In this document: in pieces, positions 8,644-22,237 of the stretch
Position numbering within the stretch: position 1 is the first letter of the stretch
Layout of the letters: each line of letters opens with the position of its first letter
Assembly: GCA_021827745.1 (NCBI GenBank)
Contig: JAKAUI010000060.1
Span: 5,442-50,608 of the forward strand
Length of the DNA stretch: 45,167 nt
Direction of reading: 5' to 3'
Source: Bacillota bacterium
Lineage (GTDB): Bacteria > Bacillota > Sulfobacillia > JAJZYS01 > JAJZLH01
Notes under the pieces: generated by a model
The model's input: only the letters and a program-made list of their open reading frames with translations
Told to the model about the DNA's origin: nothing
The model's database searches: none
Translations under genes and position numbers: made by a program

Positions 8644-8719
8644 CACTGTCCCCTCCTCTCCTGATGTGCGCTTTTCCGCCAAATGTTGCGCTGGCCCTGG
8701 GTCGAGGGCTTGCACCAGC

Positions 8720-8733
8720 GGGACTTTAGTCCC
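8720..8733. promoter_or_regulatory. DosR-type box upstream of the Fe-S/two-component operon
   Basis: Perfect palindrome GGGACTTTAGTCCC, identical to the core of the mycobacterial DosR (DevR) consensus GGGACTWWAGTCCC. It is centred about 94 bases before the preferred GTG of the NapH-like gene. The same 14 bases occur at 15579-15592 before another operon, and a DosR-like regulator is encoded in the operon behind this copy. Confidence 0.8.
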
Positions 8734-8820
8734 TGTTCACCGGCGGACAAGACGGGACCTTTCGCACTTTCGGCGTCCTCTCGAGCGGCCTACCGTTGGC
8801 AGCGGAAGGTGGGATCGACA

Positions 8821-10332
8821 GTGGCTGTTCGAAAGCTCCGGGAGCCCAGCCGAGACGGAATGGAGGAACATTTCGCTCCGAGCGATCCGAAGATCGATCT
8901 GGCCCGCAACCCGTTTTTGGCGAAGATGTTGCGCAGCCGACCCTTCCAGTTCCTGTTCATCTTGCCCAACCAGTTGATCTTCTGGCTCGTGATCGTGGCC
9001 GGCTTGTTCGGCGCTGCCGTTCCGACCCGCAACTTCGCCACCGTGATCACATGGTACATCTGGTTCTGCGTGGTCTTCCTGCTGATGGTCGGAGTCGGCC
9101 GCGGCTGGTGTCTGATGTGCCCGTTTGGCGGCTTCGCCGAATGGGTGCAGCGCCGCACCTTCTTCAAGCGCCACAAGATCTCCCTGACGCTGGGCCTGAA
9201 GTGGCCAAAGGCCTGGAGCAAGGTCGGTATTCTGTCCTCGGTCGGCGTGTTCATCGTCCTGACCTGGTTTGAGGAGTTCTACAACATTGCCGGCCCCGGC
9301 AAGCCGCTGTTCACCAGTCTGCTGGTCTTCGGCGTGATCGGGCTCGCCCTAGTCACCTTTTTGATCTTCGAGCGGCGCACCTTCTGCCGCTACCTGTGCC
9401 CGCTGACCGCCTTGATCGGCACCGTCGGCTCGACCGGCATGGTGGCTGGCTTCCGGACCCGGGACCGCGACGTCTGCCTCAGTTGCGAAACGAAGGACTG
9501 CATGCGCGGCAGCGAAAACGGCTACCCCTGCCCCTGGTATGAGTGGCCGGGATCCGCCACCTCGAACCTGACCTGCGGCCTGTGCTCGGAGTGCTTCAAG
9601 AACTGCCCGAAGGACAACGTCGGGCTGTTTGTGCAGCGCCCGCTCACCTCACTGGTGGCACCGACCAGCCGACGCTCAGACGTGGCCTGGGCCATCCTCG
9701 CCCTCTTCGGCCTAGTGCTGTTCCAGCAGGTGAACGCCCTGCCGTTCTACGTCCCGCTCGACAACTGGCTGAACCAGCTCACCGGCTTCCCGGGATATCC
9801 CAACCCGGTCGACTATCTGGGCATCATCGCTCTCGGCACGGCCGTCTGCGCCGCCTACTTCGCCCTGATGCGCTTCGTCGGCGGCATCCGCCTGCGCGAC
9901 ACGTCGGGCAGCCACAAGACCCGCCCGGCCCACACCTTGGCCGCCTGGCTGACGCCCTTGGCCTACGGACTGACCCCAATCGTCGCCGCCGACTACCTGG
10001 CCCGCCAGCTGCCGCGCTTTTGGGACCACGCCCTGCGCATCGTCCCGGCGATTTCGGACCCCTTCGCCCTCGGCTGGAATCTGTTCGGAACCGCTCACTC
10101 TTCTCTCTACAACGCCCACCTGCTGCCGCTCAGCGGCGTCATTGCCAGTCAGGTCCTGCTGTCGGTGCTGGGCGGGGGCGCAGCCCTCTATGTCACGCAG
10201 CGCATCCTGCGCCGAGACATGCGCCACCTGACCGCCCGCCCGGCGCTCGTCTCAGCGCTGGCGCTCGGCTTCGTGGTGGTGGCCACCGTTTCGGTTGCCA
10301 TCCTGTACGTGGCCATGGGCGGCGTCCAGTAA
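8821..10332 (+). CDS. NapH/YccM-like membrane iron-sulfur protein
   Basis: A polytopic protein of about 503 residues with NapH/NosR-C-type cysteine motifs. After the first helices come GRGWCLMCPFGGF and RRTFCRYLCPLTA, the paired CxxxCP loops of this family. A periplasm- or cytoplasm-facing ferredoxin-like section follows (CLSCETKDC, then CGLCSECFKNCP). Several more helices continue to the C-terminus. Homologues pass electrons between quinol and soluble reductases; the terminal partner here is unknown. The GTG at 8821 is chosen because AAGGTGG lies seven bases upstream; ATG 8857 is an alternative without a good ribosome site. The longer open frame overlaps the DosR-type box at 8720. It heads the operon with the flavoprotein and two-component system. 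Confidence 0.88.
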   Translation: MAVRKLREPSRDGMEEHFAPSDPKIDLARNPFLAKMLRSRPFQFLFILPNQLIFWLVIVAGLFGAAVPTRNFATVITWYIWFCVVFLLMVGVGRGWCLMCPFGGFAEWVQRRTFFKRHKISLTLGLKWPKAWSKVGILSSVGVFIVLTWFEEFYNIAGPGKPLFTSLLVFGVIGLALVTFLIFERRTFCRYLCPLTALIGTVGSTGMVAGFRTRDRDVCLSCETKDCMRGSENGYPCPWYEWPGSATSNLTCGLCSECFKNCPKDNVGLFVQRPLTSLVAPTSRRSDVAWAILALFGLVLFQQVNALPFYVPLDNWLNQLTGFPGYPNPVDYLGIIALGTAVCAAYFALMRFVGGIRLRDTSGSHKTRPAHTLAAWLTPLAYGLTPIVAADYLARQLPRFWDHALRIVPAISDPFALGWNLFGTAHSSLYNAHLLPLSGVIASQVLLSVLGGGAALYVTQRILRRDMRHLTARPALVSALALGFVVVATVSVAILYVAMGGVQ

Positions 10333-10359
10333 CAAATTCGTCGGGTGGAGGTGTTGGAT

Positions 10360-12243
10360 ATGGCGCTGAGACAGGAAATTGCCCCGGAGGCCACCGTTGC
10401 GCAGACGGTGCACGCCCACGTCGAGGTCAACGAGGAGCGCTGCGCCGGCTGTCAGGAGTGCGTCATCCGCTGCCCGACCGGCGCCCTCAGTCTCTATTCG
10501 GGAGACTGGGTGGCCCAGGCCAACGACGAACTGTGCGTCGGCTGCCGCCAGTGCGAGCGGGTCTGCCCGTACAGCGCCATCAAGGTGTCCGGCCCGGTTG
10601 TGGTCGCAGCCCCGCACCGGCCTGCCCTCCACCACCCGGCCGTCTTGGATCTCGACACCACGGAGATCCGCCAGGGCTTCTCCAGCTGGGAGCAGGCGGT
10701 GCGCGAAGCCACCCGTTGCCTGAACTGCCCGGATCCCACCTGCCTGAAGGGCTGCCCGGCCCACAATGACATCCCCGCCTTTATCGCCGCCATCCGCGAC
10801 CACGACCTGGATCGGGCGCATAGCGTGCTCAGTCAGACATCGGTTTTGCCGGACATCTGCTCTCGGGTCTGCGACCAAGCGGCACAGTGCGAAGGGGCCT
10901 GCTCCTGGACCCTGGCCGGCGAGCGCCCGGTGTCAATCGGTCTCTTGGAGCGCTTCATCACCGACCAGCAGCCCACTCCCGCCCCCTCCGTCGCAGCCGA
11001 CAAGGGACACGATCTCTCTGTGGCAGTCGTCGGCTCCGGCCCGGCCGGGCTGGCGGCCGCCTGGGAACTCGTTTCAAACGGCGCCCAGGTTACCGTCTAC
11101 GAGCGGGATCAGGAGCCACTCGGCGTTCTGGCCTGGGGCATCCCCTCCTTCTCCCTGCCCGACCAGGTGGCGAGACGGCCGATCGACGCCCTGCGCCAGG
11201 CCGGCGTCAGTGTCCGGCTGGGGGTGACCATCGGCAAGGACGTGATGATCGATGAACTGCTGGGCATGCATGACGCCGTGATCATGGCCCATGGCGCATC
11301 GGTTCCGATGCGGATGGCGGTTCCAGGCTTGGATCTGGCCGGCGTTGAGGATGCCACCCACTTTTTGAAGCGGGCCAAGTTCGCCCTCAAGCAGGGAAAC
11401 CGCCTGGCTGACATCCAGCCGACCACCCGGGTGCTCGTCGTCGGCGCCGGCAACACGGCCATGGATGTGGCTCGCTCCGTGCGCCGCCTCGGCGGTCAGG
11501 CCACGGCCGTGGACTGGATGGACGAGCGCTTCGCCCGGGTCCGGCGCGACGAGCTGGCCGAGGCGAGGGCCGAGGGTGTCGTGATCCGCTTCTCCACCTC
11601 CGTGGAGAGACTTGAGGGCAAGAGCGGGCAGGTGCGCTCGGCTCTGCTCCGCCACACCCGCCAGCGGCGGGCCAGCGAGCTGCCCAAGGTGACCGACGAA
11701 ACCACCGAGGCCATGGAGTGCGACCTCGTGGTCATGGCCATGGGCTATCGGGTCGACTCCGGCCTCAGCCTGCCGTACACCTCCCGACTGCCGCTGCCCC
11801 GGCCCAATTTGACGCAGGCGATTCCGGACCGGCACTGGCTGGCCAGCGGTATACTGTCGCAGGGAGGCTCGGTCGGGCAGGTGGCCTATGAGCGGGAACA
11901 GGGACTGGTTCAGGCCAAGAGGCCCCAGGGAGACCGGATCTGGGTCGCCGGCGACGCCCTAGTCGGACCGTCCACCGTGGTCGGGTCCATGGCTCAGGGC
12001 AAGGCTGCCGCCCAAAGCGTGCTGGCCATCCACCCTCAGCGCAACGTCCTGACCCCGAAGATCGCAGCCAGCCCACACCCCCGCCGCCGGGTGTCGCCGT
12101 TTCTTGTGACGGCGGGCGGACTTCTCGTGGTCAGTGTGCTCCTGTTTCTCTCCGTGGCCGGCTTCTTGGGCGGCATCATCTCGGCCGGCCTGGCTGCCCT
12201 GATGGTCGCCGCAGACCGGCTGCTCGCCCGCCATCCCCGCTAG
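10360..12243 (+). CDS. Ferredoxin-GltD-like flavoprotein with C-terminal membrane anchor
   Basis: A 627-residue multidomain redox protein. Residues about 20-75 contain two [4Fe-4S] motifs (CAGCQECVIRCP and CVGCRQCERVCP). Next is the GltD/PreT-type Fe-S helical domain (CLNCPDPTCLKGCP, CSRVC, CEGAC). An FAD-binding fold follows (VVGSGPAGLAAAWEL) with an inserted NAD(P)H domain (VVGAGNTAMDVARSV) and the final FAD motif GDAL. Two hydrophobic stretches near the C-terminus, about residues 575-615, suggest attachment to the membrane; soluble GltD lacks these. It would move electrons between NAD(P)H and Fe-S carriers, plausibly to or from the NapH-like partner encoded 27 bases upstream. The ATG at 10360 sits eight bases after GGAGG and is preferred over GTG 10345. 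Confidence 0.9.
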   Translation: MALRQEIAPEATVAQTVHAHVEVNEERCAGCQECVIRCPTGALSLYSGDWVAQANDELCVGCRQCERVCPYSAIKVSGPVVVAAPHRPALHHPAVLDLDTTEIRQGFSSWEQAVREATRCLNCPDPTCLKGCPAHNDIPAFIAAIRDHDLDRAHSVLSQTSVLPDICSRVCDQAAQCEGACSWTLAGERPVSIGLLERFITDQQPTPAPSVAADKGHDLSVAVVGSGPAGLAAAWELVSNGAQVTVYERDQEPLGVLAWGIPSFSLPDQVARRPIDALRQAGVSVRLGVTIGKDVMIDELLGMHDAVIMAHGASVPMRMAVPGLDLAGVEDATHFLKRAKFALKQGNRLADIQPTTRVLVVGAGNTAMDVARSVRRLGGQATAVDWMDERFARVRRDELAEARAEGVVIRFSTSVERLEGKSGQVRSALLRHTRQRRASELPKVTDETTEAMECDLVVMAMGYRVDSGLSLPYTSRLPLPRPNLTQAIPDRHWLASGILSQGGSVGQVAYEREQGLVQAKRPQGDRIWVAGDALVGPSTVVGSMAQGKAAAQSVLAIHPQRNVLTPKIAASPHPRRRVSPFLVTAGGLLVVSVLLFLSVAGFLGGIISAGLAALMVAADRLLARHPR

Positions 12244-12288: not shown

Positions 12289-13695
12289 GTGCACCGACTC
12301 CGATCCCTGATCCAAGGCGGCTTCTGGCGGTGGCTTGCGGCGGCGGTGGTGGTTGCCATCGAGCTGGCGGTCGGGCTGACCCTGGCGCCGTTCGCTCCCC
12401 TGGCCTGGCAGCGAGACCTGCTCTATCTGGGCACGGCTCTCGCTGCCATCTTCGTCTTCGTGGCCTTCTCGCAGTTGGGGCTGCTCTGGGTCAGGGCCAC
12501 CGCCCAGGCGGAAGAGGCCGAGAGATTGCGCAAGGAGGCGGACCGCCGCCGGGCGCTTCTTGAGACGCTGCACGAGGCAGCGGTCGCCGTGCGCTCCAAG
12601 GAGGCCTATCCCGACGTGCTGCGCCAGATCGTGGCGCTGGCCGTGCGTCTGGCCGGCGCCAGCTACGGGGCGCTCTCCGAGTTCGATGACGAGGAACAGG
12701 TAGTCAACTTCGTCACGGTCGGGGTCCCGGACGACATCCGCGAGCGGATCGGCCTGCCGCCCAGCCATCGCGGGCTCTTGCGCCGGCTGTCCGTCGACGA
12801 GCGGCCGCTTCGCCTGTCCAATGTCCAGGTTGAGCCGGACTTCAGCGGCTTTCCCAACGAGCACCCGCACTTTCGCACCTTTTTGGGCGTCCCGCTCTAC
12901 TGGCAGGGCGAGCTGGTCGGTCACCTCTACCTCGGTGGCCACCACGGGGAGGAGCCGTTTACGGCCGAAGAAGAGCAGCTATTGGAGATGTTCGGCATGC
13001 ACGCCGCCGCCGCCATCGCCCGGGCCAGGCTATTGCGGGACCAGGCCACGGTGGTGCGGGCCGCAGAGCGGCGGGAGATCGCCATGGAGCTCCATGACGG
13101 AGCCCTGCAGACCCTGTACGCCGTCGGCATCCAGCTGGACAGAAGCCGCCGCCGACAGCTGGCGTCCGTCCCGGATCCCGGTTCGCTGGATCTGGTCTTA
13201 GAGGCGGTGCAGCAGGCGATGGACGCCATCCGCCGCGTGCTGGACGACCTCGACCAGACCCCTGCCCCGGCCGTTGTCGACCAACTCAGACTGGCGACTC
13301 AGCAGATGGCAGAGCTCTACGGCATCAACCTCACCTGGAAGGGATTGGCCCTGGCCAGGGAGATGCCGGCCGGCTGGGCGACCGATCTGTCCATGCTGAT
13401 CGCCGAGGCGGTCTCCAACGCCGGCCGGCACGGCCGCGCCACAGACGTCCTGGTCTGCTTGGAGCGTGACGACGACTGCATCCGGTTGACCGTGGACGAC
13501 AATGGGGTCGGACTCCCCGAGGCAACCGGAGACATGGCTGGAGTCGGGCGCGGTCTCGACAACCTGTCCCGCCGGGCGCAGCGCCTGGGCGGGAGCGCCA
13601 TCCTCCTCCCCCGACCAGAGGGGGGTGCCCGGGTGGCGGTCGAACTCCCCTACGCCCCGCCCCTGCCCCATCCTGACCAGGAGGCGACACGATGA
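12289..13695 (+). CDS. GAF-domain sensor histidine kinase, DosS/DosT-like
   Basis: A 468-residue kinase: two N-terminal membrane helices (about 10-65), a short coiled linker, one GAF domain (about 85-250), a HisKA_3 dimerisation helix with phosphoacceptor His269 in ELHDG, and an ATPase domain (N box NAGRHG with Asn377; G box DDNGVGL). The GAF segment FPNEHPHFRTFLGVP closely resembles the heme-binding GAF-A of mycobacterial DosS/DosT, and His192 aligns with the histidine pair that, from memory, includes the heme ligand His149 of DosS. Unlike DosS it has one GAF and is membrane anchored. The GTG lies seven bases after GGAGG. Its stop overlaps the response regulator start as ATGA. Heme, NO, O2 or redox sensing is inference. 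Confidence 0.9.
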   Translation: MHRLRSLIQGGFWRWLAAAVVVAIELAVGLTLAPFAPLAWQRDLLYLGTALAAIFVFVAFSQLGLLWVRATAQAEEAERLRKEADRRRALLETLHEAAVAVRSKEAYPDVLRQIVALAVRLAGASYGALSEFDDEEQVVNFVTVGVPDDIRERIGLPPSHRGLLRRLSVDERPLRLSNVQVEPDFSGFPNEHPHFRTFLGVPLYWQGELVGHLYLGGHHGEEPFTAEEEQLLEMFGMHAAAAIARARLLRDQATVVRAAERREIAMELHDGALQTLYAVGIQLDRSRRRQLASVPDPGSLDLVLEAVQQAMDAIRRVLDDLDQTPAPAVVDQLRLATQQMAELYGINLTWKGLALAREMPAGWATDLSMLIAEAVSNAGRHGRATDVLVCLERDDDCIRLTVDDNGVGLPEATGDMAGVGRGLDNLSRRAQRLGGSAILLPRPEGGARVAVELPYAPPLPHPDQEATR

Positions 13696-14345
13696 GTGTG
13701 TCCATCGTCATCGTCGACGACCACGCCGTGGTCCGGGTCGGACTGGCCACCGTATTGGCCGACCGGCCGGACTTTGAGGTCAAGGCGTCTGTCGGCACGG
13801 CCGAAGAGGCCGTAGCCGCGGTTGGCCTGCACCGGCCCGACGTGCTGGTGCTCGACCTGCGCCTGCCCGACCGTCCGGGCACCGCGATCGTTCCGGACGT
13901 GCGAAAGGCGTCCCCGACCACGCGCATCCTGGTCCTCACCTCCTACGGCGAGGATCGGGCGGTGGTGGAGGCGGTGGCCGCAGGCGTGGACGGCTTTTTG
14001 GTCAAGTCGGCGGACAGCGGGCGGCTGATCGCAGCCATCGACGACCTGATGGCTGGCCGCCCGATGCTGGGCGAGCAGGTCGCAGACGCACTGGTCCGCC
14101 ACCTGCAGGCTCCCAAGGACAGCGACCCGGCAGTGGCGCTGGCCGACCAGCTGACCCGACGCGAGATGGAGGTCGTGATGGCGGTCAGCCGTGGCCTTTC
14201 CAACCGCGAGATCGGCGAGCAGCTCGGGCTGTCTGAAAAGACGGTCAAAAACCACATCAGCGACATCCTGAGTAAGCTGGGGCTGGCCCGGCGGGCTCAG
14301 ATCGTCGTCTTGGTCCATGAGCAGGCTCAGCGCTATCGCAGCTAG
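13692..14345 (+). CDS. DosR/DevR-like response regulator (REC-LuxR HTH)
   Basis: A 217-residue NarL/FixJ-type regulator. The receiver domain has the acidic pair Asp9-Asp10, phosphoacceptor Asp55 in VLDLRLPD (similar to VLDVRLPD of DosR), LTSY at the switch Ser/Thr, and Lys105. The LuxR-type HTH ends in LSEKTVKNHISDILSKLG. Lys183, Lys186 and Asn187 match the DosR recognition-helix residues Lys179, Lys182 and Asn183 that contact the GGGAC half-site (numbers from memory). Both palindromes found in this window have exactly that half-site. The ATG overlaps the kinase stop by four bases, so production is coupled. The box ahead of the operon implies autoregulation. Confidence 0.92.
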   Translation: MSVSIVIVDDHAVVRVGLATVLADRPDFEVKASVGTAEEAVAAVGLHRPDVLVLDLRLPDRPGTAIVPDVRKASPTTRILVLTSYGEDRAVVEAVAAGVDGFLVKSADSGRLIAAIDDLMAGRPMLGEQVADALVRHLQAPKDSDPAVALADQLTRREMEVVMAVSRGLSNREIGEQLGLSEKTVKNHISDILSKLGLARRAQIVVLVHEQAQRYRS

Positions 14346-14578: not shown

Positions 14579-15304
14579 TCAGTGCAGGACCGGGTTCACC
14601 AGGTCGACCTGGGTGCCTGTCGCATTTGTTGTCGTCACCGTCATCACGAGCGTCGAAATGGCAGTGAGATTAAGCGCCACGGACTGCGGTGCGCCGCCCG
14701 GCGTCAGCGTGTATGAGGCCAGGGTGTTGCCGTCCCCCGAAAATGTCACCGTAGCCGCGTGGGAACTGGCGTCGTCCAGCCCGATGCTCGCCGCCAAGGA
14801 GATGTACTTCCCGTTCAGGTTCCATGTCTCGGTGGCACTGCCTGCGGCTGAGGAACCCAGCATCAGCCCGTTGCTGTACGAGGTTCCATTAATGCTGAAC
14901 ACCGGCTCGTTTGCAGGCTGGAGGGTGGTGTAGCCAGTAGACAGGAAGTCCTGACACCCTGCCCCGCAGTTGACACTAAGGGAGGCTTGCAACGCAGACA
15001 GGTCTGTCGACTGACCGGCAGGTTGATTCCCAACATACACGGTGTGGCTCGAGGAATCCCATGAGACCGGAGTGTTCAGATCCTGGGCCACATACCTGAT
15101 CGGAAGATACACATGGCCGTTGTAGATAAACGGCTGAGCACCCGATGATTCCGCTTGGCCATTGACATCAATGCCAATGTTCTCGAACGCCACCTGGATC
15201 GACGTCATGGAACTGGTCGCTGCCAAGGCCACACCGCCGCTCAGACCAACCAGCAGCGAGACCCCCGCAACAGCGATCCACTTGAACACACGAGACCTAA
15301 GCAC
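14579..15304 (-). CDS. Secreted protein with stalk domain and NPCBM-like domain
   Basis: A 241-residue exported protein. A signal peptide (VFKWIAVAGVSLLVGLSGG, then AALA-type cleavage region) is followed by a copper-amine-oxidase N-terminal-like stalk (FIYNGHVYLPIRYVAQ, VSWDSSSHTVYVG), a repeat unit used by Bacillota as a wall or surface module. The C-terminal half (NGLMLGSSAAGSATETWNL, ISLAASIGLDD) resembles the NPCBM carbohydrate-binding fold. No catalytic domain is present, so it may bind surface polysaccharide. GTG 15304 is chosen because GGGGGG lies nine bases upstream and gives a compact signal peptide; ATG 15373 behind GGAGG with only three bases spacing is an alternative. It diverges from the diiron gene, across the gap with the two DosR-type boxes. 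Confidence 0.8.
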   Translation of the reverse strand: MLRSRVFKWIAVAGVSLLVGLSGGVALAATSSMTSIQVAFENIGIDVNGQAESSGAQPFIYNGHVYLPIRYVAQDLNTPVSWDSSSHTVYVGNQPAGQSTDLSALQASLSVNCGAGCQDFLSTGYTTLQPANEPVFSINGTSYSNGLMLGSSAAGSATETWNLNGKYISLAASIGLDDASSHAATVTFSGDGNTLASYTLTPGGAPQSVALNLTAISTLVMTVTTTNATGTQVDLVNPVLH

Positions 15305-15555
15305 GTCGACACACCCCCCATCGAAATTCGAACGCCTGTTGACTTGTACTCTGCCGTCACAATCTCCTGCCATATTCCTCCATAAAAGTTTTGTCATCCC
15401 TCCTTCGCCTCTGCTTCCCATATTCAAGCACCATGGTGATCACCCACGTGCACGACAAGGGCGGGAGCTTCGCTCACGCCTGCGCCATCCACCGGAAATC
15501 CATCGCTGCCACGTTTGGACAATGAGTCCAGGATGGTCGCGCGCACCGACCCTCC

Positions 15556-15569
15556 AGGACTAAGGTCCT
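15556..15569. promoter_or_regulatory. DosR-type box, variant copy
   Basis: AGGACTAAGGTCCT, a 14-base near-palindrome that matches the DosR core at most positions. It lies 23 bases, centre to centre, upstream of the perfect copy, so the two are on about the same helical face. Paired boxes are usual at strongly DosR-induced mycobacterial promoters. Confidence 0.65.
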
Positions 15570-15578
15570 TGTCTCTTT

Positions 15579-15592
15579 GGGACTTTAGTCCC
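15579..15592. promoter_or_regulatory. DosR-type box, perfect copy, upstream of diiron gene
   Basis: GGGACTTTAGTCCC, identical over all 14 bases to the copy at 8720 and preceded by TTT as in the extended consensus. It is centred about 92 bases before the GTG of the diiron gene, almost the same distance as the other copy from its gene. Confidence 0.8.
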
Positions 15593-15677
15593 TGGGCGCG
15601 TCCTGGGCACTGCTCTAGGCTGAATTGATCGATGGGACCGCCCGGCCATTTGGCGAGCGCCCGAGGAGGCAGACTCC

Positions 15678-16544
15678 GTGATCAGAATCACCCCGCGCTT
15701 AGACGACGCTCGCTACACTCGCCTCTTTCACATCGGCGCCAAACACCAGTGGACAGTCGAAGACGTGGACTGGACCATCCCGGACGGCCTGGATCTGCGC
15801 GGCCGTGAGGCGTTGGCCCGCCTTTTGACGCCGGTGTTCTTGGGCGAGCGGGCCGCCCTGCTCGGAGGGGCCCAGGCCCTGCTCATGCTCGGGGCGGAGA
15901 CGGAGTCCGCCCAGCTGTATATGCCGAGCTTTCTGATGGACGAGGCCCGGCACATTGAGACCATCACGCGCCTCTATGAGCTGCTCGGATTTTCCCCGAT
16001 GCGGATCAAGGAGATGCCGGAGATGCTCCAGTACCACCACCGGATGCGGATGGGCAAAACACCTCTGCACTGGGTGATGGGCATCTTGGTCAGCGACATC
16101 TTTGCCCGTACGCTCTACGGCGCCTTCGCCCGTACCAAGGGGTCGTTTTTGTTCGGGCGCATCTCGGCCGACATCGTGGTGGACGAAGGGCGCCACCAGG
16201 CCTTTGCCGAGCACTATCTCTCCGACCGGCTGCCCACGGCCGCTCCGGAGCTGAGGCAGGAGATCTTCTCGGTCAAGGAGGACCTCTTGCGGATCGTGGC
16301 CCGCATGGGCGTCACCTTGAAGGATGACGCCTCGGCGCTGGGCTTTCCCGCCCAAGACCTCTTTTCGGCCTTCTCGGACGAGGTGCAGGCCAGAAGCCGC
16401 CATGTCGGCTTGCGTTGCGGCGCCTGTGCGGCCGAGGCCAGTCCGGGCACCCGAGCCGCTCTTCCGGCCAGCTGCCAGGGCTGCTTTGTCACAAAGACGC
16501 TGGCCGCCCTGACCGCATCCGCCTCCGCCCCACCCACGGCCTAG
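15678..16544 (+). CDS. Ferritin-like diiron-carboxylate protein (R2-like) with CxxC tail
   Basis: A 288-residue, mostly helical protein. Candidate metal ligands are Glu57, Glu89 and His92 (DEARH), and Glu170 and His173 (DEGRH), the two ExxH pairs of ribonucleotide-reductase-R2-like oxidases. The expected glutamate in the third helix is not evident; Asp140 (VSDIFARTLYG) lies at about the right place. This could be an oxygenase, an R2-like oxidase or an O2/peroxide-reducing protein; the exact subfamily is not clear to me. The C-terminal 60 residues add CGAC and CQGC, which could bind Zn or Fe-S. GTG is nine bases behind GGAGG. Two DosR-type boxes precede it, and a radical SAM gene follows by 104 bases. 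Confidence 0.8.
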   Translation: MIRITPRLDDARYTRLFHIGAKHQWTVEDVDWTIPDGLDLRGREALARLLTPVFLGERAALLGGAQALLMLGAETESAQLYMPSFLMDEARHIETITRLYELLGFSPMRIKEMPEMLQYHHRMRMGKTPLHWVMGILVSDIFARTLYGAFARTKGSFLFGRISADIVVDEGRHQAFAEHYLSDRLPTAAPELRQEIFSVKEDLLRIVARMGVTLKDDASALGFPAQDLFSAFSDEVQARSRHVGLRCGACAAEASPGTRAALPASCQGCFVTKTLAALTASASAPPTA

Positions 16545-16648
16545 GGCGCGCTGACCCTTTGGCCGGCGTCTTGCTGGCCAGGGGACGGCTGGTTCGGCGC
16601 CCCGGCTACTGTCTGCTGTCTTGGCTCAATCAACCGGAGGTGTTGGCC

Positions 16649-17761
16649 GTGGCGATGGCGCAGGAGCCCAACGGCGGCTCGGCGTTCTCAAACCGGCCGA
16701 TGCTTGTCTTCTGGGAGACGACCCGCGCCTGCCTGCTTGCCTGCAGCCACTGCCGGGCGACGGCCCAACGCCGGCCGCTGCCCGGCGAGCTCGACACCGC
16801 CGAGGGCCTGGCCCTGCTTGAGCAGATCGCTGCCTTTGGCCAGCCGACTCCGGTGGTTGTGTTCACCGGCGGCGACCTGCTCTTGCGCCGTGACATCTTC
16901 CGCCTGATCGAGCGAGCCCGAGAGCTGGGGCTCCGGGTCGCAGCGGCGCCGGCCGTGACGCCCCGGCTGGATCGCCTGGCCCTCAGTCGGCTGAAGGCCG
17001 CGGGCGCCCAGGCGATTTCACTCAGCCTCGACGCCCTGCGCCCGGTTCACGACCAGATCAGGGGCGTGCCCGGCACCTTCGACCGCACGGTGAAGGCAGC
17101 CCTGATCGCTCAGGATCTGGGCCTTAGCGTCCAGATCAACACGGTGGTGATGGCCCAGACGGTGCCGACCCTGCCCGATGTGGCTGCCCTATTGCTCTCG
17201 GCCCGGATCCCGATCTGGGAGGTGTTCTTCCTGATCGCCACCGGCCGAGCTCAGAAAGACGCCATGGTCTCGGCCGAGGACGCAGAAGACGTCTGCCACT
17301 TTCTCCTGGATGCCTCCCGCTACGACCTCTTGGTGCGCACGGTCGAGGCCCCGTTCGTCCGCCGCATCCTATCCGAGCGCCAACAGGGAGCCGAAGGCGG
17401 CGCCCTCTACCGCCACCTCAGCTCCCGGCTCGCCGAGCTCTCTGGTCCCCTCGTCCACGACATCCGGATGGGCACCCGCGGCACCCTGGATGGGGACGGC
17501 ATCTTGTTTGTCGCCTACGACGGTACGGTGATGCCCGGGGGGTTCCTGCCCATCCCGCTGGGTTGGGTGCAGCACGACCAGCTCACCGAGATCTACCGCC
17601 ATCATCCACTCTTGGAGGCGATCCGGCGCCGAGAGCTAGAAGACCCGTGCGGCTCCTGTGCGCACCGCTTCGCCTGCGGCGGTTCGCGGGCCCGGGCCTA
17701 CACCATGACCGGCGACGCTCTGGCCGCAGATCCGGCCTGCACGCTCGCCCGACCGATCTAG
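16649..17761 (+). CDS. Radical SAM/SPASM protein (TIGR04053-like)
   Basis: A 370-residue radical SAM enzyme. The SAM cluster motif CLLACSHC follows FWETTRA, then TGGDLLLRRD. The C-terminal SPASM domain has CGSCAHRFACGGSRARAYTMTGD and a last DPAC for auxiliary clusters. These features, with WEVFFLIATGRA and VEAPFVRR, match the family I know as TIGR04053, related to the heme-pathway enzymes AhbC/AhbD/NirJ but of unproven reaction. The GTG at 16649 is eight bases after GGAGG; ATG 16655 is the alternative. It is probably cotranscribed with the diiron gene and hence under the DosR-type boxes. Its 3' end overlaps the convergent membrane protein gene by four bases. Confidence 0.88.
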   Translation: MAMAQEPNGGSAFSNRPMLVFWETTRACLLACSHCRATAQRRPLPGELDTAEGLALLEQIAAFGQPTPVVVFTGGDLLLRRDIFRLIERARELGLRVAAAPAVTPRLDRLALSRLKAAGAQAISLSLDALRPVHDQIRGVPGTFDRTVKAALIAQDLGLSVQINTVVMAQTVPTLPDVAALLLSARIPIWEVFFLIATGRAQKDAMVSAEDAEDVCHFLLDASRYDLLVRTVEAPFVRRILSERQQGAEGGALYRHLSSRLAELSGPLVHDIRMGTRGTLDGDGILFVAYDGTVMPGGFLPIPLGWVQHDQLTEIYRHHPLLEAIRRRELEDPCGSCAHRFACGGSRARAYTMTGDALAADPACTLARPI

Positions 17762-18890: not shown

Positions 18891-19487
18891 TCAGTTCAAG
18901 ACGGTCATGGTGCCGCTCATGTACCCCTTTTCCGCCATCGGTCCGCTCCATCCGGAGGGGCCGGTGCCGCACGGAGCCATGCACTGCCAGACGAAGCTTC
19001 CGGACTTGGTCACCTGGAAGGTGGCCTGCACGGTGACGCTCTTTTGGCCAACGGCCACCGCCGGCACCACGACGTTCAGGCCAAGGGCCGGGATGGTCAG
19101 GGTGTGGGCCCCCAGGTTAGGCGTGATCTGGCTCACCGCCGTGCCATTGATCATCTCGGTCCCGCCGACCGTCCCCGAAACCTTGGCGAAGTTCGCCGGC
19201 AGGGTGGAGGTGCCAGGGTCAAACGACGTGATGGTCAGGACCACCGTCTCGCCCTTAGAGACGGTGAAGTCGGTGGGCGTGAACTGCGGCCAGTTGCCGT
19301 TTAGGACACTCAGATTCACGTGCACGGTCTTGGCCGCCGTTTGGGTGGCGGCACTCGGGGCGGGAGTCGCTGTGCTGGTGGTGGTGAGGGCACCGCATCC
19401 GGCGATCAGGCCGGCAAAGGCGGCAAACGCACCGAAGGCCAGCACGCCCGGTAGGAGTCGACTGCGAAACACCACATTGCGAGCCAT
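18891..19487 (-). CDS. Cupredoxin-fold lipoprotein with CuA-like cysteine pair
   Basis: A 198-residue exported protein. The signal ends in a lipobox (LIAGC, Cys31), so it should be lipid-anchored on the outer face of the membrane. A Thr/Ala-rich linker leads to a cupredoxin fold. His128 (GAHTLTI) is in the place of the first copper histidine. The C-terminal loop reads CMAPCGTGP, with Cys169 and Cys173 spaced as in the CuA site of cytochrome oxidase subunit II. However, the residue four after the second cysteine is Pro177, not His, and a Met (184) lies further on. It may carry a modified type 1, CuA-like or red-copper site for electron transfer. The ATG is behind AGAAAGG. Neighbours are a DoxX-like protein and an unknown membrane protein. 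Confidence 0.82.
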   Translation of the reverse strand: MARNVVFRSRLLPGVLAFGAFAAFAGLIAGCGALTTTSTATPAPSAATQTAAKTVHVNLSVLNGNWPQFTPTDFTVSKGETVVLTITSFDPGTSTLPANFAKVSGTVGGTEMINGTAVSQITPNLGAHTLTIPALGLNVVVPAVAVGQKSVTVQATFQVTKSGSFVWQCMAPCGTGPSGWSGPMAEKGYMSGTMTVLN

Positions 19488-19652
19488 CCGATCACAACCT
19501 TTCTGAGTCCGGGGGCTGCGCAGGGCTACGCAACCCCTGGGGTCATGCTCCCTCCGGAGAAAGGGCCGGACCATCGGGGAATCTCCCGATTTCTGATCGG
19601 GTCTAGACCTGAGTTCTTGCCATCCGGCTGCCACGGCCCTGGTTGAGCGAAA

Positions 19653-19685
19653 CCCCGCCCACGCCATGAAGCGGCGTGGGCGGGG
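19653..19685 (-). terminator. Strong 13-bp hairpin after the doxX-like gene
   Basis: Perfect stem CCCCGCCCACGCC (19653-19665) / GGCGTGGGCGGGG (19673-19685) with a seven-base loop. It begins 24 bases after the DoxX stop, and on the minus strand the stem is followed by TTTCGCT. This should end or reduce transcription before the cupredoxin gene. Confidence 0.7.
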
Positions 19686-19709
19686 CTTGTGGGCGCCTTG
19701 GGCCAGATG

Positions 19710-20375
19710 TCAGTGCGACGGCTGAGCGGTGGCAGAGGGGGCGCTGCGCCGAGCGGTCGGCCCGGGCTGCCAGGGCGTGCCGAACAGCGGCAAGAGCCAG
19801 TGGTCGAATCCGTACCAGCCGGCCACCCGCCAGGCCAGGATCAGGAACAGGCTGAGCAGGAAGAGGACAGGATTGATGCTCACGGCGCCAGCCAAGAGAT
19901 AGTTCATGTTCATGAAGCAGCCGAAGAAGGCGGCGATCCCGGTCAGGACACCGAGGATCAGGGCCAGTCCGACCGAAAGCTCGCCGATGGACACGATGTA
20001 GGAGAAGACGGCGACATGCGGCACCACCACACCTTGCAGAAACGCTCCGTACCATCCCTGGACGTTGGCGTGGGGACCGGCCATCTGACTGAGAGACCCC
20101 TTCAGGAACCCGCCGAGGGCGACTCCGGCCTTCGCTCCCACCCATGCCGGGCTACCCAGCTTCTCTAGGCCGGCAAACATCCACTGCCAGCCCACGTACA
20201 CCCGGATCACGAGCCAAAGCCACGCCATCCGGGTGTCGCCGAACAGCAGACGAGAGATGCGCGGTTCCACCACTTCGGTCAATAGATGCTGCGTGACGGG
20301 CAGCCGCTCGCTCCCGTCTTCTCCGATCACCAATCCCCGTGCGCTCCGGCCCCCACCTGACCGATCGGTGCTCAT
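19710..20375 (-). CDS. DoxX/DoxD-family membrane protein
   Basis: A 221-residue protein with four or five membrane helices. Features typical of the DoxX family are RVYVGWQWMFAGLEKL in the first helix, GELSVGLALILG, TGIAAFFGCFMNMNYL, and AWRVAGWYGFDHWLLP near the end. In Acidianus the DoxD/DoxA pair is thiosulfate:quinone oxidoreductase; many DoxX proteins have no known role. Thiosulfate or quinone chemistry is therefore possible but unproven, and no DoxA partner gene is seen. The ATG at 20375 lies behind GAGGAGG (about 11 bases). It diverges from a two-component system across a 273-base gap containing repeated TGACCC/GGGTCA elements. Confidence 0.82.
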   Translation of the reverse strand: MSTDRSGGGRSARGLVIGEDGSERLPVTQHLLTEVVEPRISRLLFGDTRMAWLWLVIRVYVGWQWMFAGLEKLGSPAWVGAKAGVALGGFLKGSLSQMAGPHANVQGWYGAFLQGVVVPHVAVFSYIVSIGELSVGLALILGVLTGIAAFFGCFMNMNYLLAGAVSINPVLFLLSLFLILAWRVAGWYGFDHWLLPLFGTPWQPGPTARRSAPSATAQPSH

Positions 20376-20480
20376 CTCAACCCCGCCTCCTCGGGACTGT
20401 GTAGCCATCGCCGCTGCTGTTTGCCGCCTGCGATCGCCCATCGCCATCCTCGACCGAAGCGGCCTCCTGGCCCATCCGCT

Positions 20481-20510
20481 TGACCCTTGATCTTGGGTCA
20501 GGCCCGACCC
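20481..20510. promoter_or_regulatory. Repeated TGACCC/GGGTCA elements between doxX and kinase genes
   Basis: TGACCC (20481-20486), GGGTCA (20495-20500) and CGACCC (20505-20510, followed by TGA) alternate in orientation. They make an eight-spaced and a four-to-six-spaced inverted repeat. The region is the divergent promoter of the DoxX-like gene and the second two-component system, so it may be the site of the NarL-type regulator encoded there. Inference only. Confidence 0.4.
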
Positions 20511-20648
20511 TGAGCCTGGGACGATCAGGCCTTCGCCTGTTGACATCGGCATCCGGGCGGTGACCAATGAAGGAAACAGAGCGCGCGGCTTCGGGGGGAG
20601 GCGGGCCCAGCGATACGGTTCCTACTCCAGCTGCACCGCCGGCTGAAC

Positions 20649-21614
20649 TTGGTCTGGAAGGTCTTTCTCGCCAATTTGGCCCTGATCGTGGTCCTGATCG
20701 GCGGCCTGATCTATCTGGACGACCGACTGAGCACCTCGACCACCGGCCTGACGTTGCTCGTCTTGGCGGCAGTCGTGGTGATGTTGGACTATGCCCTGCT
20801 CCGGATGGCGGCCGCTCCTTTGGTCATCTTGTCGGCGGTGGTGAGCGACATCAATCCGAAGTCGCCGACCGCCAGGCTGCCGCTGAACGCCGCCGACCCG
20901 GACGTGCGGGCCACCGCCCAGCTCTTGAACCGGCTCCTGCTCTCCTTGGCCGCCGAGCGCCGCCAGTCTGCCCGTCGCCTGATCGCCGCCCAGGAGCAAG
21001 AGCGGCGAACGCTCTCCCAGCGCATCCACGACTCGGCCGTCCAGTCACTGGCCCTGCAGCAGATCGTGCTGGACCGGGCCGGTCAGAAGGCGTCGACGCC
21101 CGAGACCGCTCAAACCCTGGCCGAGGTTCGCCGCCTGGGACAGGACTCGCTCAACGACCTGCGCCTTGTGATCCAGGACATGCGGCCGCCCGTGCTCGAC
21201 CAGTTGGGGCTGGTGGCCGCCATCTCCAGCCTGCTGGAGGATCGGGCGCGGCCGCTTGGCATCAAGAGCCGGCTCAGGGTCAGCGGCCAGCCGCTGGCAC
21301 TGGCGCCGGAGCTGGAGACCTCTTTGTACCGGACGGTGAACGAGGCGGTGGTGAATGCGATCCGCCACTCCGGATGCCGCACGATCACGGTCCGCCTGCG
21401 CTTTGGCCGCGGCTGGCTGTTCGTGTTCTGTTCGGACGACGGACATGGCCTTTCAGATGCCGCCTCGGCCAACGGCTACGGCATCCCCGGCATGATGGAG
21501 CGCACGGCGCTGTTCGACGGCCATCTGGAGATCGGCCCCGGGATCAGCGGCGGTACCCGCGTCCGCCTGGCCGTGCCCCTGTCCGAGCAGGTGCTGGGAG
21601 GTGGCGGGCGATGA
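20649..21614 (+). CDS. NarL-type sensor histidine kinase, start unresolved
   Basis: A kinase of about 321 residues or slightly longer. Two membrane helices (about 3-25 and 33-55) are followed by an HAMP-like linker, a HisKA_3 helix with ERRTLSQRIHDSAVQSL (phosphoacceptor His), and a C-terminal ATPase domain (NEAVVNAIRHS, DDGHGL, GIPGM). There is no periplasmic or PAS/GAF sensor domain, so the signal is likely sensed in or at the membrane. No ATG or GTG is available: the frame opens after a TGA at 20568 and offers only ATA 20613, CTG 20631/20643 and TTG 20649. A GGGGGAGG run lies at 20594-20601. Removing one G from that run would join the frame to ATG 20567. The stop overlaps the regulator start as ATGA. 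Confidence 0.85.
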   Translation: MVWKVFLANLALIVVLIGGLIYLDDRLSTSTTGLTLLVLAAVVVMLDYALLRMAAAPLVILSAVVSDINPKSPTARLPLNAADPDVRATAQLLNRLLLSLAAERRQSARRLIAAQEQERRTLSQRIHDSAVQSLALQQIVLDRAGQKASTPETAQTLAEVRRLGQDSLNDLRLVIQDMRPPVLDQLGLVAAISSLLEDRARPLGIKSRLRVSGQPLALAPELETSLYRTVNEAVVNAIRHSGCRTITVRLRFGRGWLFVFCSDDGHGLSDAASANGYGIPGMMERTALFDGHLEIGPGISGGTRVRLAVPLSEQVLGGGGR

Positions 21615-22237
21615 TTCGGCTTCTTCTGGCGGACGACCATCCGCTCTTGCGTCAGGGGATCCGCTCGGTCTTGGAGGGCGAGCCCGACATCACGGTCATG
21701 GCCGAGGCGGCCACTGGCCAAGAGGTGCTCGACATCTGTCAGCACGCGGTTCCGGACATGGTGGTGATGGATGTCTCGATGCCCGAGATGGACGGCATCT
21801 CGGCCACCCGCGAACTGCATCGCACCCACCCGGAGGTGGCGGTGCTGATGCTGACCATGCACCACGATCTCGGCTTCGTCCAGGCGGCCCTGGACGCCGG
21901 CGCCACCGGCTACCTGCTGAAGGAGACGGCGGCCCGCGACCTGGTGCATGCGGTTCGGGCCGTCGTGCACGGCGAGGCCGTGATCTACCCGTCTTTGGTG
22001 CGCGGCCTGCTCGGCCCCCACAGCGTCAGCGAGCCCAAGCTGACCGGGCGCGAGCTGGAGGTGCTGACCCTGATCGCCGCCGGCAACACCACGAAGGAGA
22101 TCGCCGCCGCCCTCTTCGTCAGCGTCAAGACAGTCGAGACGCACCGACTGCACCTGATGGAGAAACTGAACCTGCACGACCGGGTGGCCCTGGTCAAGTA
22201 CGCCCTGCGCCGCGGCCTGATCGGCCTAGACTTCTAG
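21612..22237 (+). CDS. NarL/FixJ-family response regulator
   Basis: A 208-residue regulator. The receiver has LLLADDHPLLRQG, phosphoacceptor Asp in VVMDVSMPEMDG, and the conserved lysine in YLLKET. The LuxR-type HTH has LTGRELEVLTLIAAG and VKTVETHRLHLMEKL. The recognition helix (KTVETHR) differs from the KTVKNHI of the first regulator, so it should bind another site. Overlap ATGA with the kinase shows a coupled pair. Possible targets are the divergent doxX-cupredoxin genes, given the repeats in the shared gap. The long open frame upstream of 21612 is a shadow of the kinase gene. Confidence 0.92.

Follow-up and report, generated by a model that had tools for sequence, protein, structure and literature searches.

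Locus organization

The DNA analyzed here, called the window throughout, is a 45,167-nucleotide stretch from an uncultured Firmicute (Bacillota) related to Sulfobacillus and is part of a genome assembly of 1.62 Mb. An earlier note on positions 15556-17761 had described a diiron protein with a CxxC tail, followed by a radical S-adenosylmethionine (SAM)/SPASM gene, behind tandem DosR-type boxes; the coordinates, model scores and box conservation given below bear this description out. The locus of interest is larger than that interval, reaching upstream to about 8683 and taking in genes for a polyferredoxin, an oxidoreductase, a sensor kinase and a response regulator, all in the same direction as the diiron and radical SAM genes. 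The features are as follows.

8720..8733: DosR-type box, exact GGGACTTTAGTCCC, ahead of the ferredoxin/flavoprotein/kinase/regulator operon (exact-pattern search; same place in L004 and L003 with 1-2 mismatches)
8683..10332, plus strand: NapH-like membrane polyferredoxin (Fer4_5, 35.0 bits; NapH-family model, 20.7 bits, below cut-off)
10345..12243, plus strand: GltD-type Fe-S/FAD oxidoreductase with an N-terminal ferredoxin domain (gltA model, 277 bits, below cut-off)
12289..13695, plus strand: DosS-like sensor kinase with GAF, HisKA_3 and HATPase domains (best PDB matches DevS/DosT GAF-A; histidine of GFPxxHP kept)
13692..14345, plus strand: DosR-like response regulator, NarL/LuxR type (best PDB match DevR, 3c3w, 144 bits)
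14579-15427, minus strand: gene with Cu amine oxidase N-terminal and NPCBM domains, unrelated, between the regulator and diiron genes
15556..15569: distal DosR-type box, AGGACTAAGGTCCT, 3 mismatches to GGGACTWWAGTCCC
15579..15592: proximal DosR-type box, exact GGGACTTTAGTCCC
15615..15621, plus strand: CTAGGCT, invariant, candidate -10 region, 22 nt downstream of the proximal box
15678..16544, plus strand: diiron protein of R2lox/aldehyde-deformylating oxygenase (ADO) fold, 288 amino acids (aa), GTG start, ligand positions E57, E89, H92, D140, E170 and H173, tail CxxC-x15-CxxC
16649..17761, plus strand: TIGR04053 radical SAM/SPASM enzyme, subtype B (CX3CX2C; CX2CX5CX20C)

The listed open reading frame (ORF) of the polyferredoxin starts ahead of the box at 8720, so its true start should lie downstream of 8733. 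The mechanically called ORF of the radical SAM gene begins at 16415 and so overlaps the diiron gene; the likely start is the GTG at 16649, after GGAG at 16636-16639, leaving a gap of 104 nt in which neither a terminator-like hit nor a DosR-type box was found. Two congeneric genomes (loci L003 and L004, diiron proteins 89% identical to that of the window) have the four upstream genes followed directly by the diiron and radical SAM genes, and the gene at 14579-15427 is missing from the corresponding place in both.

A DosS/DosR-like pair and the DosR-type boxes

When searched against PDB, the GAF domain of the kinase matched DevS and DosT GAF-A on top (87 and 84 bits). The equivalent of His149, the proximal heme-binding residue of DosS in passages of PMC4082495, lies in GFPxxHP and is conserved in the window kinase, in DevS and in the kinases of L003, L004, L118, L120 and L121. 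The regulator consists of a receiver and a LuxR-type helix-turn-helix, and its recognition helix, EKTVKN, is identical to that of DevR, holding K179, K182 and N183, the core DNA-contact residues of DosR (excerpt of PMC5999986). The likeness to DosS/DosT-DosR (DevS-DevR) of Mycobacterium thus covers a GAF-A with its proximal heme histidine, the recognition residues and the core of the DNA motif: the boxes at 8720 and 15579 match the 14-bp core of the Mycobacterium tuberculosis motif, TTSGGGACTWWAGTCCCSAA (as excerpted from PMC2275270), exactly, the outer bases not being fully matched.

The exact box GGGACTTTAGTCCC occurs twice in the window's own genome, at 8720 and 15579, both in this locus, against no exact site for a reversed-pattern control. 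Allowing up to 2 mismatches gave 7 sites per strand versus 17 for the control, and therefore only the exact sites stand out. Exact matches to GGGACTWWAGTCCC were found in 6 of 61 genomes, comprising all 3 of the genus and 3 of the 58 others; the reversed pattern hit 2 of the same 61. A DosR-type regulon in other orders was considered and rejected, the figure outside the genus being near control level.

Conservation within the genus is closer. The proximal box precedes the diiron gene in 3/3 genomes, the tandem boxes recur in L003 and L004 within an otherwise diverged intergenic region, and the three-genome alignment has a footprint at the proximal box and its edge, where 22 columns in a row are invariant; most positions of the distal box are conserved among the three as well. 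The kinase operon box is present in all three, with 0 to 2 mismatches. CTAGGCT is a plausible -10 region, and the proximal box would lie directly against the -35 region. Taken together, the two boxed operons look like a compact two-operon DosSR-type regulon in Bacillota, with two exact target sites in one locus compared with the 49 genes controlled by DosR in M. tuberculosis (passages of PMC2275270). Among the papers listed for DosR with Bacillota/Chloroflexi or with Sulfobacillus, judged by their listing, none concerned this system.

Other members of the diiron family also lie beside two-component genes. In family f10 the order kinase-regulator-diiron is found in 3 of 6 genomes (L118, L120 and L121; not L119, L122 and L123), with 33-34% (kinase) and 39-41% (regulator) identity to the window proteins; the regulators of these three have His in place of Asn183 in the recognition helix. 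At L118, L120 and L121 no box was seen by eye upstream of the diiron gene and no radical SAM gene is present. Genomes G003 and G082 have a different NarL-type pair near a diiron gene. By these arrangements, the tie of the diiron family to two-component control is older than its tie to the radical SAM gene. Separately, the window holds a second NarL-type kinase/regulator pair at 20649-22237, and a pair of its type (54% regulator identity) adjoins a diiron gene in L013 and L117.

A diiron family with an aspartate in its metal site

The earlier note had read two ExxH pairs in the diiron protein and an aspartate, Asp140, where a third-helix glutamate was looked for. Both pairs, E89-xx-H92 (DEARH) and E170-xx-H173 (DEGRH), are present, together with E57 as the helix-B carboxylate, and profile alignment places D140 on the helix-E glutamate of ADOs; the "missing" glutamate is therefore a conserved aspartate. 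All six residues are invariant in 28/28 aligned sequences.

The AlphaFold model has an overall pLDDT of 84, and its best match in a fold search is R2lox (7qbp, Z 25.0, 2.6 Å over 242 residues, 18% identity); R2 and ADO are not far behind. R2lox shares the R2-type fold, the six carboxylate/His ligands (with Asp for Glu in helix E) and alignable helix B and C motifs; identity is nevertheless low, the score against NF006200 is 16.1 bits versus a cut-off of 194, and Val72 of the R2lox Val-Tyr crosslink corresponds to A60, the alignment not covering the position of Tyr162. AurF (PF11583) is matched marginally, at 30.4 bits against a gathering score of 29.6. The alignment with ADO covers helices E and F, whereas the ADO model TIGR04059 gives 23.2 against a cut-off of 222.65; relative to AurF and ADO, the window protein has an extra N-terminal region and the Cys tail. 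A PHROGs search gave no match for it. We conclude that it is a member of an unnamed conserved family with an R2lox/ADO fold and an Asp-containing site.

The tail cysteines are C247-x2-C250-x15-C266-x2-C269, a CxxC-x15-CxxC pattern limited to the genus of the window among the proteins aligned. Most long-tail copies end in CxxC[F/A/V]xALLC. The combination of a diiron fold and four tail cysteines, the presence of electron-transfer genes in the regulon and DosR-type control would all suit a rubrerythrin-like scavenger of peroxide, O2 or NO with rubredoxin-type iron in the tail, the radical SAM gene being an unrelated member of the regulon. We consider this unlikely, if far from negligible: the tail has x15 spacing and is no rubredoxin domain by any Pfam model; the fold is R2lox-like, with rubrerythrin absent from the fold matches listed, which does not exclude it; and the heme evidence for TIGR04053, given below, would go unused. 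Rubrerythrin carries a rubredoxin-like domain at its C-terminus, to which the tail here, in a low-confidence part of the model, may or may not correspond.

Thirty-one diiron loci were found, and the family occurs in 29 of 101 relatives' genomes, many with two copies. Long-tail copies share a neighbor cluster of HMG-CoA reductase type in 23/31 loci, neighboring genes in GC-rich loci having been taken from family scans since gene calling there missed or misframed genes. The window's own genome also holds a long-tail copy (G000:C61) adjoining HMG-CoA reductase. Long-tail diiron genes are convergent with the HMG-CoA reductase gene across several families (e.g., L115, 6735-9091), and contigs from many assemblies (L016, L018, L021-L023, L026-L028, L030 and L031) end 1.0-1.9 kb past the long-tail diiron gene, which suggests a repeat. 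Past the radical SAM gene of the window, the opposite strand at 18891-20567 encodes a 258-aa protein without a Pfam match and a DoxX/DoxD-like protein; a relative of the former adjoins a diiron gene in L135.

Side-by-side diiron and radical SAM genes in a single genus

The earlier note raised the possibility that the diiron protein is modified by the radical SAM enzyme or receives a cofactor made by it, and held that absence of adjacency in relatives, together with no modification or shared pathway, would speak against a link. A tblastn search with the radical SAM protein against the 31 diiron loci found it in 2, L003 and L004; since every locus extends at least about 1 kb beyond the diiron gene, a directly following radical SAM gene would have been partly seen. 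Both genes occur together in 24 of the 101 genomes and are adjacent in only 3 of these (G000, G001 and G002), all of one genus, which makes a dedicated pair of maturase and substrate unlikely; outside the genus the neighborhood survey went against the proposal, and we dropped it as our principal explanation. What stood of the note's interpretation was the DosR-type control, to which the DosS/DosR-like pair just upstream can now be added, and the link of the radical SAM enzyme to low oxygen and heme.

Modification of the diiron protein, for example by crosslinking within its Cys tail or metal site, would fit two genes adjacent under one promoter in three genomes, the genus-limited tail and the fact that SPASM enzymes often modify peptides. 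We nevertheless judge it highly improbable, since no diiron gene accompanies the radical SAM orthologues of 62-66% identity (a Tad-pilus operon, for example, is convergent with one), and the diiron proteins of those genomes carry a different tail. Moreover, the genes are apart in 21 of the 24 genomes that have both, and the enzyme, which is without the first auxiliary cluster, has its closest kin among tetrapyrrole enzymes rather than peptide maturases. Confinement to one genus could also mean that the radical SAM gene moved beside the diiron gene by chance, with no functional tie, and the gene inserted between the regulator and diiron genes shows that the window has undergone recent local change. 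Such an accident seems quite unlikely, given that the order is kept in three genomes despite radical SAM divergence to 73-78% identity and that the 104-nt gap yielded no separate promoter or box.

A possible role of TIGR04053 in the last step of heme synthesis

The earlier note's assignment of the radical SAM gene to TIGR04053 holds, at 431.2 bits against a cut-off of 395; the next-best model is AhbD (TIGR04545, 224.5 bits). In 53/53 aligned family sequences the radical SAM Cys triplet is accompanied by a single auxiliary motif, CX2CX5CX20C, with no further conserved Cys; in the window enzyme these are C28/C32/C35 (CX3CX2C) and C334/C337/C343/C364 (AuxII). AhbD has CX3CX2C and an AuxII motif CX2CX5CX20-38C (excerpt of PMC10452713). 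AhbD is thus the nearest characterized relative, sharing both motifs, and differs from the TIGR04053 enzyme in that the latter is without AuxI cysteines and scores far under the AhbD cut-off. A literature search on TIGR04053 found no paper.

In the family tree the window enzyme falls in a subtype B clade, apart from subtype A (35-42% identity). Subtype B members from another family of the same order are 62-66% identical to it, and those from two further families 53-55%. The window's own genome has one TIGR04053 gene of each subtype, the other (L107, 4151-6018) lying directly after a resolvase gene and an IS605/Cas12f1-like transposase gene split over two frames. A class II aldolase gene, sometimes with aldehyde dehydrogenase and HAD genes, is found close to TIGR04053 in L108, L109, L103 and L162, four genomes in all, and possibly serves 5'-deoxyadenosine salvage for radical SAM enzymes.

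The coproporphyrin-dependent heme pathway ends with ChdC, which needs H2O2. Co-occurrence was surveyed in the 101 genomes, with TIGR04053 counted if over its cut-off and the genome sets compiled by hand. TIGR04053 is present in 36/45 ChdC genomes versus 6/56 others (Fisher test, 6e-13), in 21/30 versus 6/56 outside the order of the window (3e-8), and in 15/18 versus 4/29 at family level (collapsed by hand from the genome tables), counts that genome relatedness and lifestyle confound. Three of the six TIGR04053 genomes without ChdC have ferrochelatase; the other three (G023, G031 and G042) have neither, and hold an AhbC/NirJ1-type radical SAM gene that scores below curated cut-offs, in G023 adjacent to TIGR04053 and divergent. 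Each TIGR04053 genome of the set therefore has a plausible source of coproheme, and the window's own genome has both ChdC and ferrochelatase. In G015, TIGR04053 follows a NirJ1/AhbC-type gene in tandem, the same arrangement as AhbC-AhbD in G068; a HisKA_3 kinase and a LuxR-type regulator come after that tandem (L152, 8599-10392). One family has seven genomes with subtype A near ChdC, but this was set aside as main evidence, the genes being kilobases apart or convergent in a region with unrelated genes. We infer from the AhbD likeness, the ChdC co-occurrence and the AhbC/NirJ1-type neighbors that the TIGR04053 enzyme may be an oxygen-independent coproheme decarboxylase for low oxygen.

Tetrapyrrole pathways are known for pairs of oxygen-using and oxygen-independent enzymes, such as AcsF/BchE and HemF/HemN, and the diiron protein and radical SAM enzyme could form another, acting on the same tetrapyrrole substrate. 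The diiron family occurs in ChdC genomes in 28/29 cases, and about 7 kb or less separates a diiron gene from ferrochelatase in six genomes of one family. This nearness, once a candidate argument for a heme role of the diiron protein, is weakened by pyrimidine-salvage genes (deoC, pyrimidine phosphorylase and cytidine deaminase) that intervene between the heme genes and the opposite-strand diiron gene in the one such locus scanned. With HMG-CoA reductase as the best-conserved neighbor of long-tail copies, and with the peroxide-using role already filled by ChdC, we regard such a pair as very unlikely.

Discussion

We give about an even chance to the explanation that the locus is a DosSR-type two-operon regulon with an AhbD-like heme synthase and a diiron oxidase, linked by shared regulation. 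From the sequences, boxes, footprint, homologies, invariant ligands and distribution observed here, we infer heme and gas binding, DNA binding, both enzyme reactions and the electron route. The membrane-linked kinase, with its putative heme-binding GAF, would sense low oxygen (or NO/CO), which would alter its heme, and would phosphorylate the DosR-like regulator. The regulator may then bind the GGGACTTTAGTCCC boxes, which would adjoin the -35 region, to switch on both operons; this signal-sensing and box-binding step is suggested by sequence conservation. Operon 1 would be the regulator's own and would also provide for electron supply through the polyferredoxin and the FAD/Fe-S oxidoreductase; operon 2 would comprise the diiron and radical SAM genes. 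The radical SAM enzyme may act as an AhbD-like heme b synthase, decarboxylating coproheme without oxygen and covering for ChdC when the oxidant is lacking. The diiron protein may be an R2lox/ADO-fold oxidase, probably consuming O2, peroxide or NO, that would draw electrons from the co-regulated polyferredoxin and flavoprotein via its four-cysteine tail. The two genes would thus be tied by shared regulation and not as enzyme and substrate.

Several observations weigh against this explanation. DosS has two GAF domains, whereas the window kinase, in Bacillota, has a single Pfam GAF stretch (residues 109-244) and no tandem GAF-A/GAF-B; the equivalents of E87 and H89 of DosS are also not conserved, and because of these two features the kinase, judged by its sequence, is DosS-like rather than DosS. 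A sigma-70 consensus scan found no promoter. The Cys tail has a pLDDT below 50 and is unstructured in the model, and the kinase-linked diiron proteins of f10 are without it. The AhbD cut-off of 500 bits is missed by far, and 9 of the 45 ChdC genomes are without an over-cut-off TIGR04053; the co-occurrence could, moreover, merely mirror oxygen-tolerant lifestyles. Since the same genome holds a subtype A copy, a heme role need not apply to subtype B, whose neighbors elsewhere are not heme genes but genes for pili and glycine cleavage, or else for an aldolase and an aldehyde dehydrogenase.

More tentatively, and as something possible rather than probable, the locus may represent a mycobacterial-type DosSR switch outside Actinobacteria that controls a low-oxygen heme module, with TIGR04053 as the missing O2-independent coproheme decarboxylase of bacteria that use the coproporphyrin pathway and a new R2lox-fold diiron family on the same switch.

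The locus is real and conserved within its genus, and its chief worth lies in the radical SAM enzyme as a heme synthase candidate and in the DosR-type switch in Bacillota. The analysis further identifies a conserved diiron family whose site contains an Asp and which has no assigned function. The locus would show the logic of DosR box and heme-GAF kinase at work in Bacillota, where two target operons make a simple setting for study. TIGR04053 is a concrete, testable candidate for an oxygen-independent last step of heme synthesis where ChdC needs H2O2, being frequent in ChdC genomes and placed here under a hypoxia-type switch.

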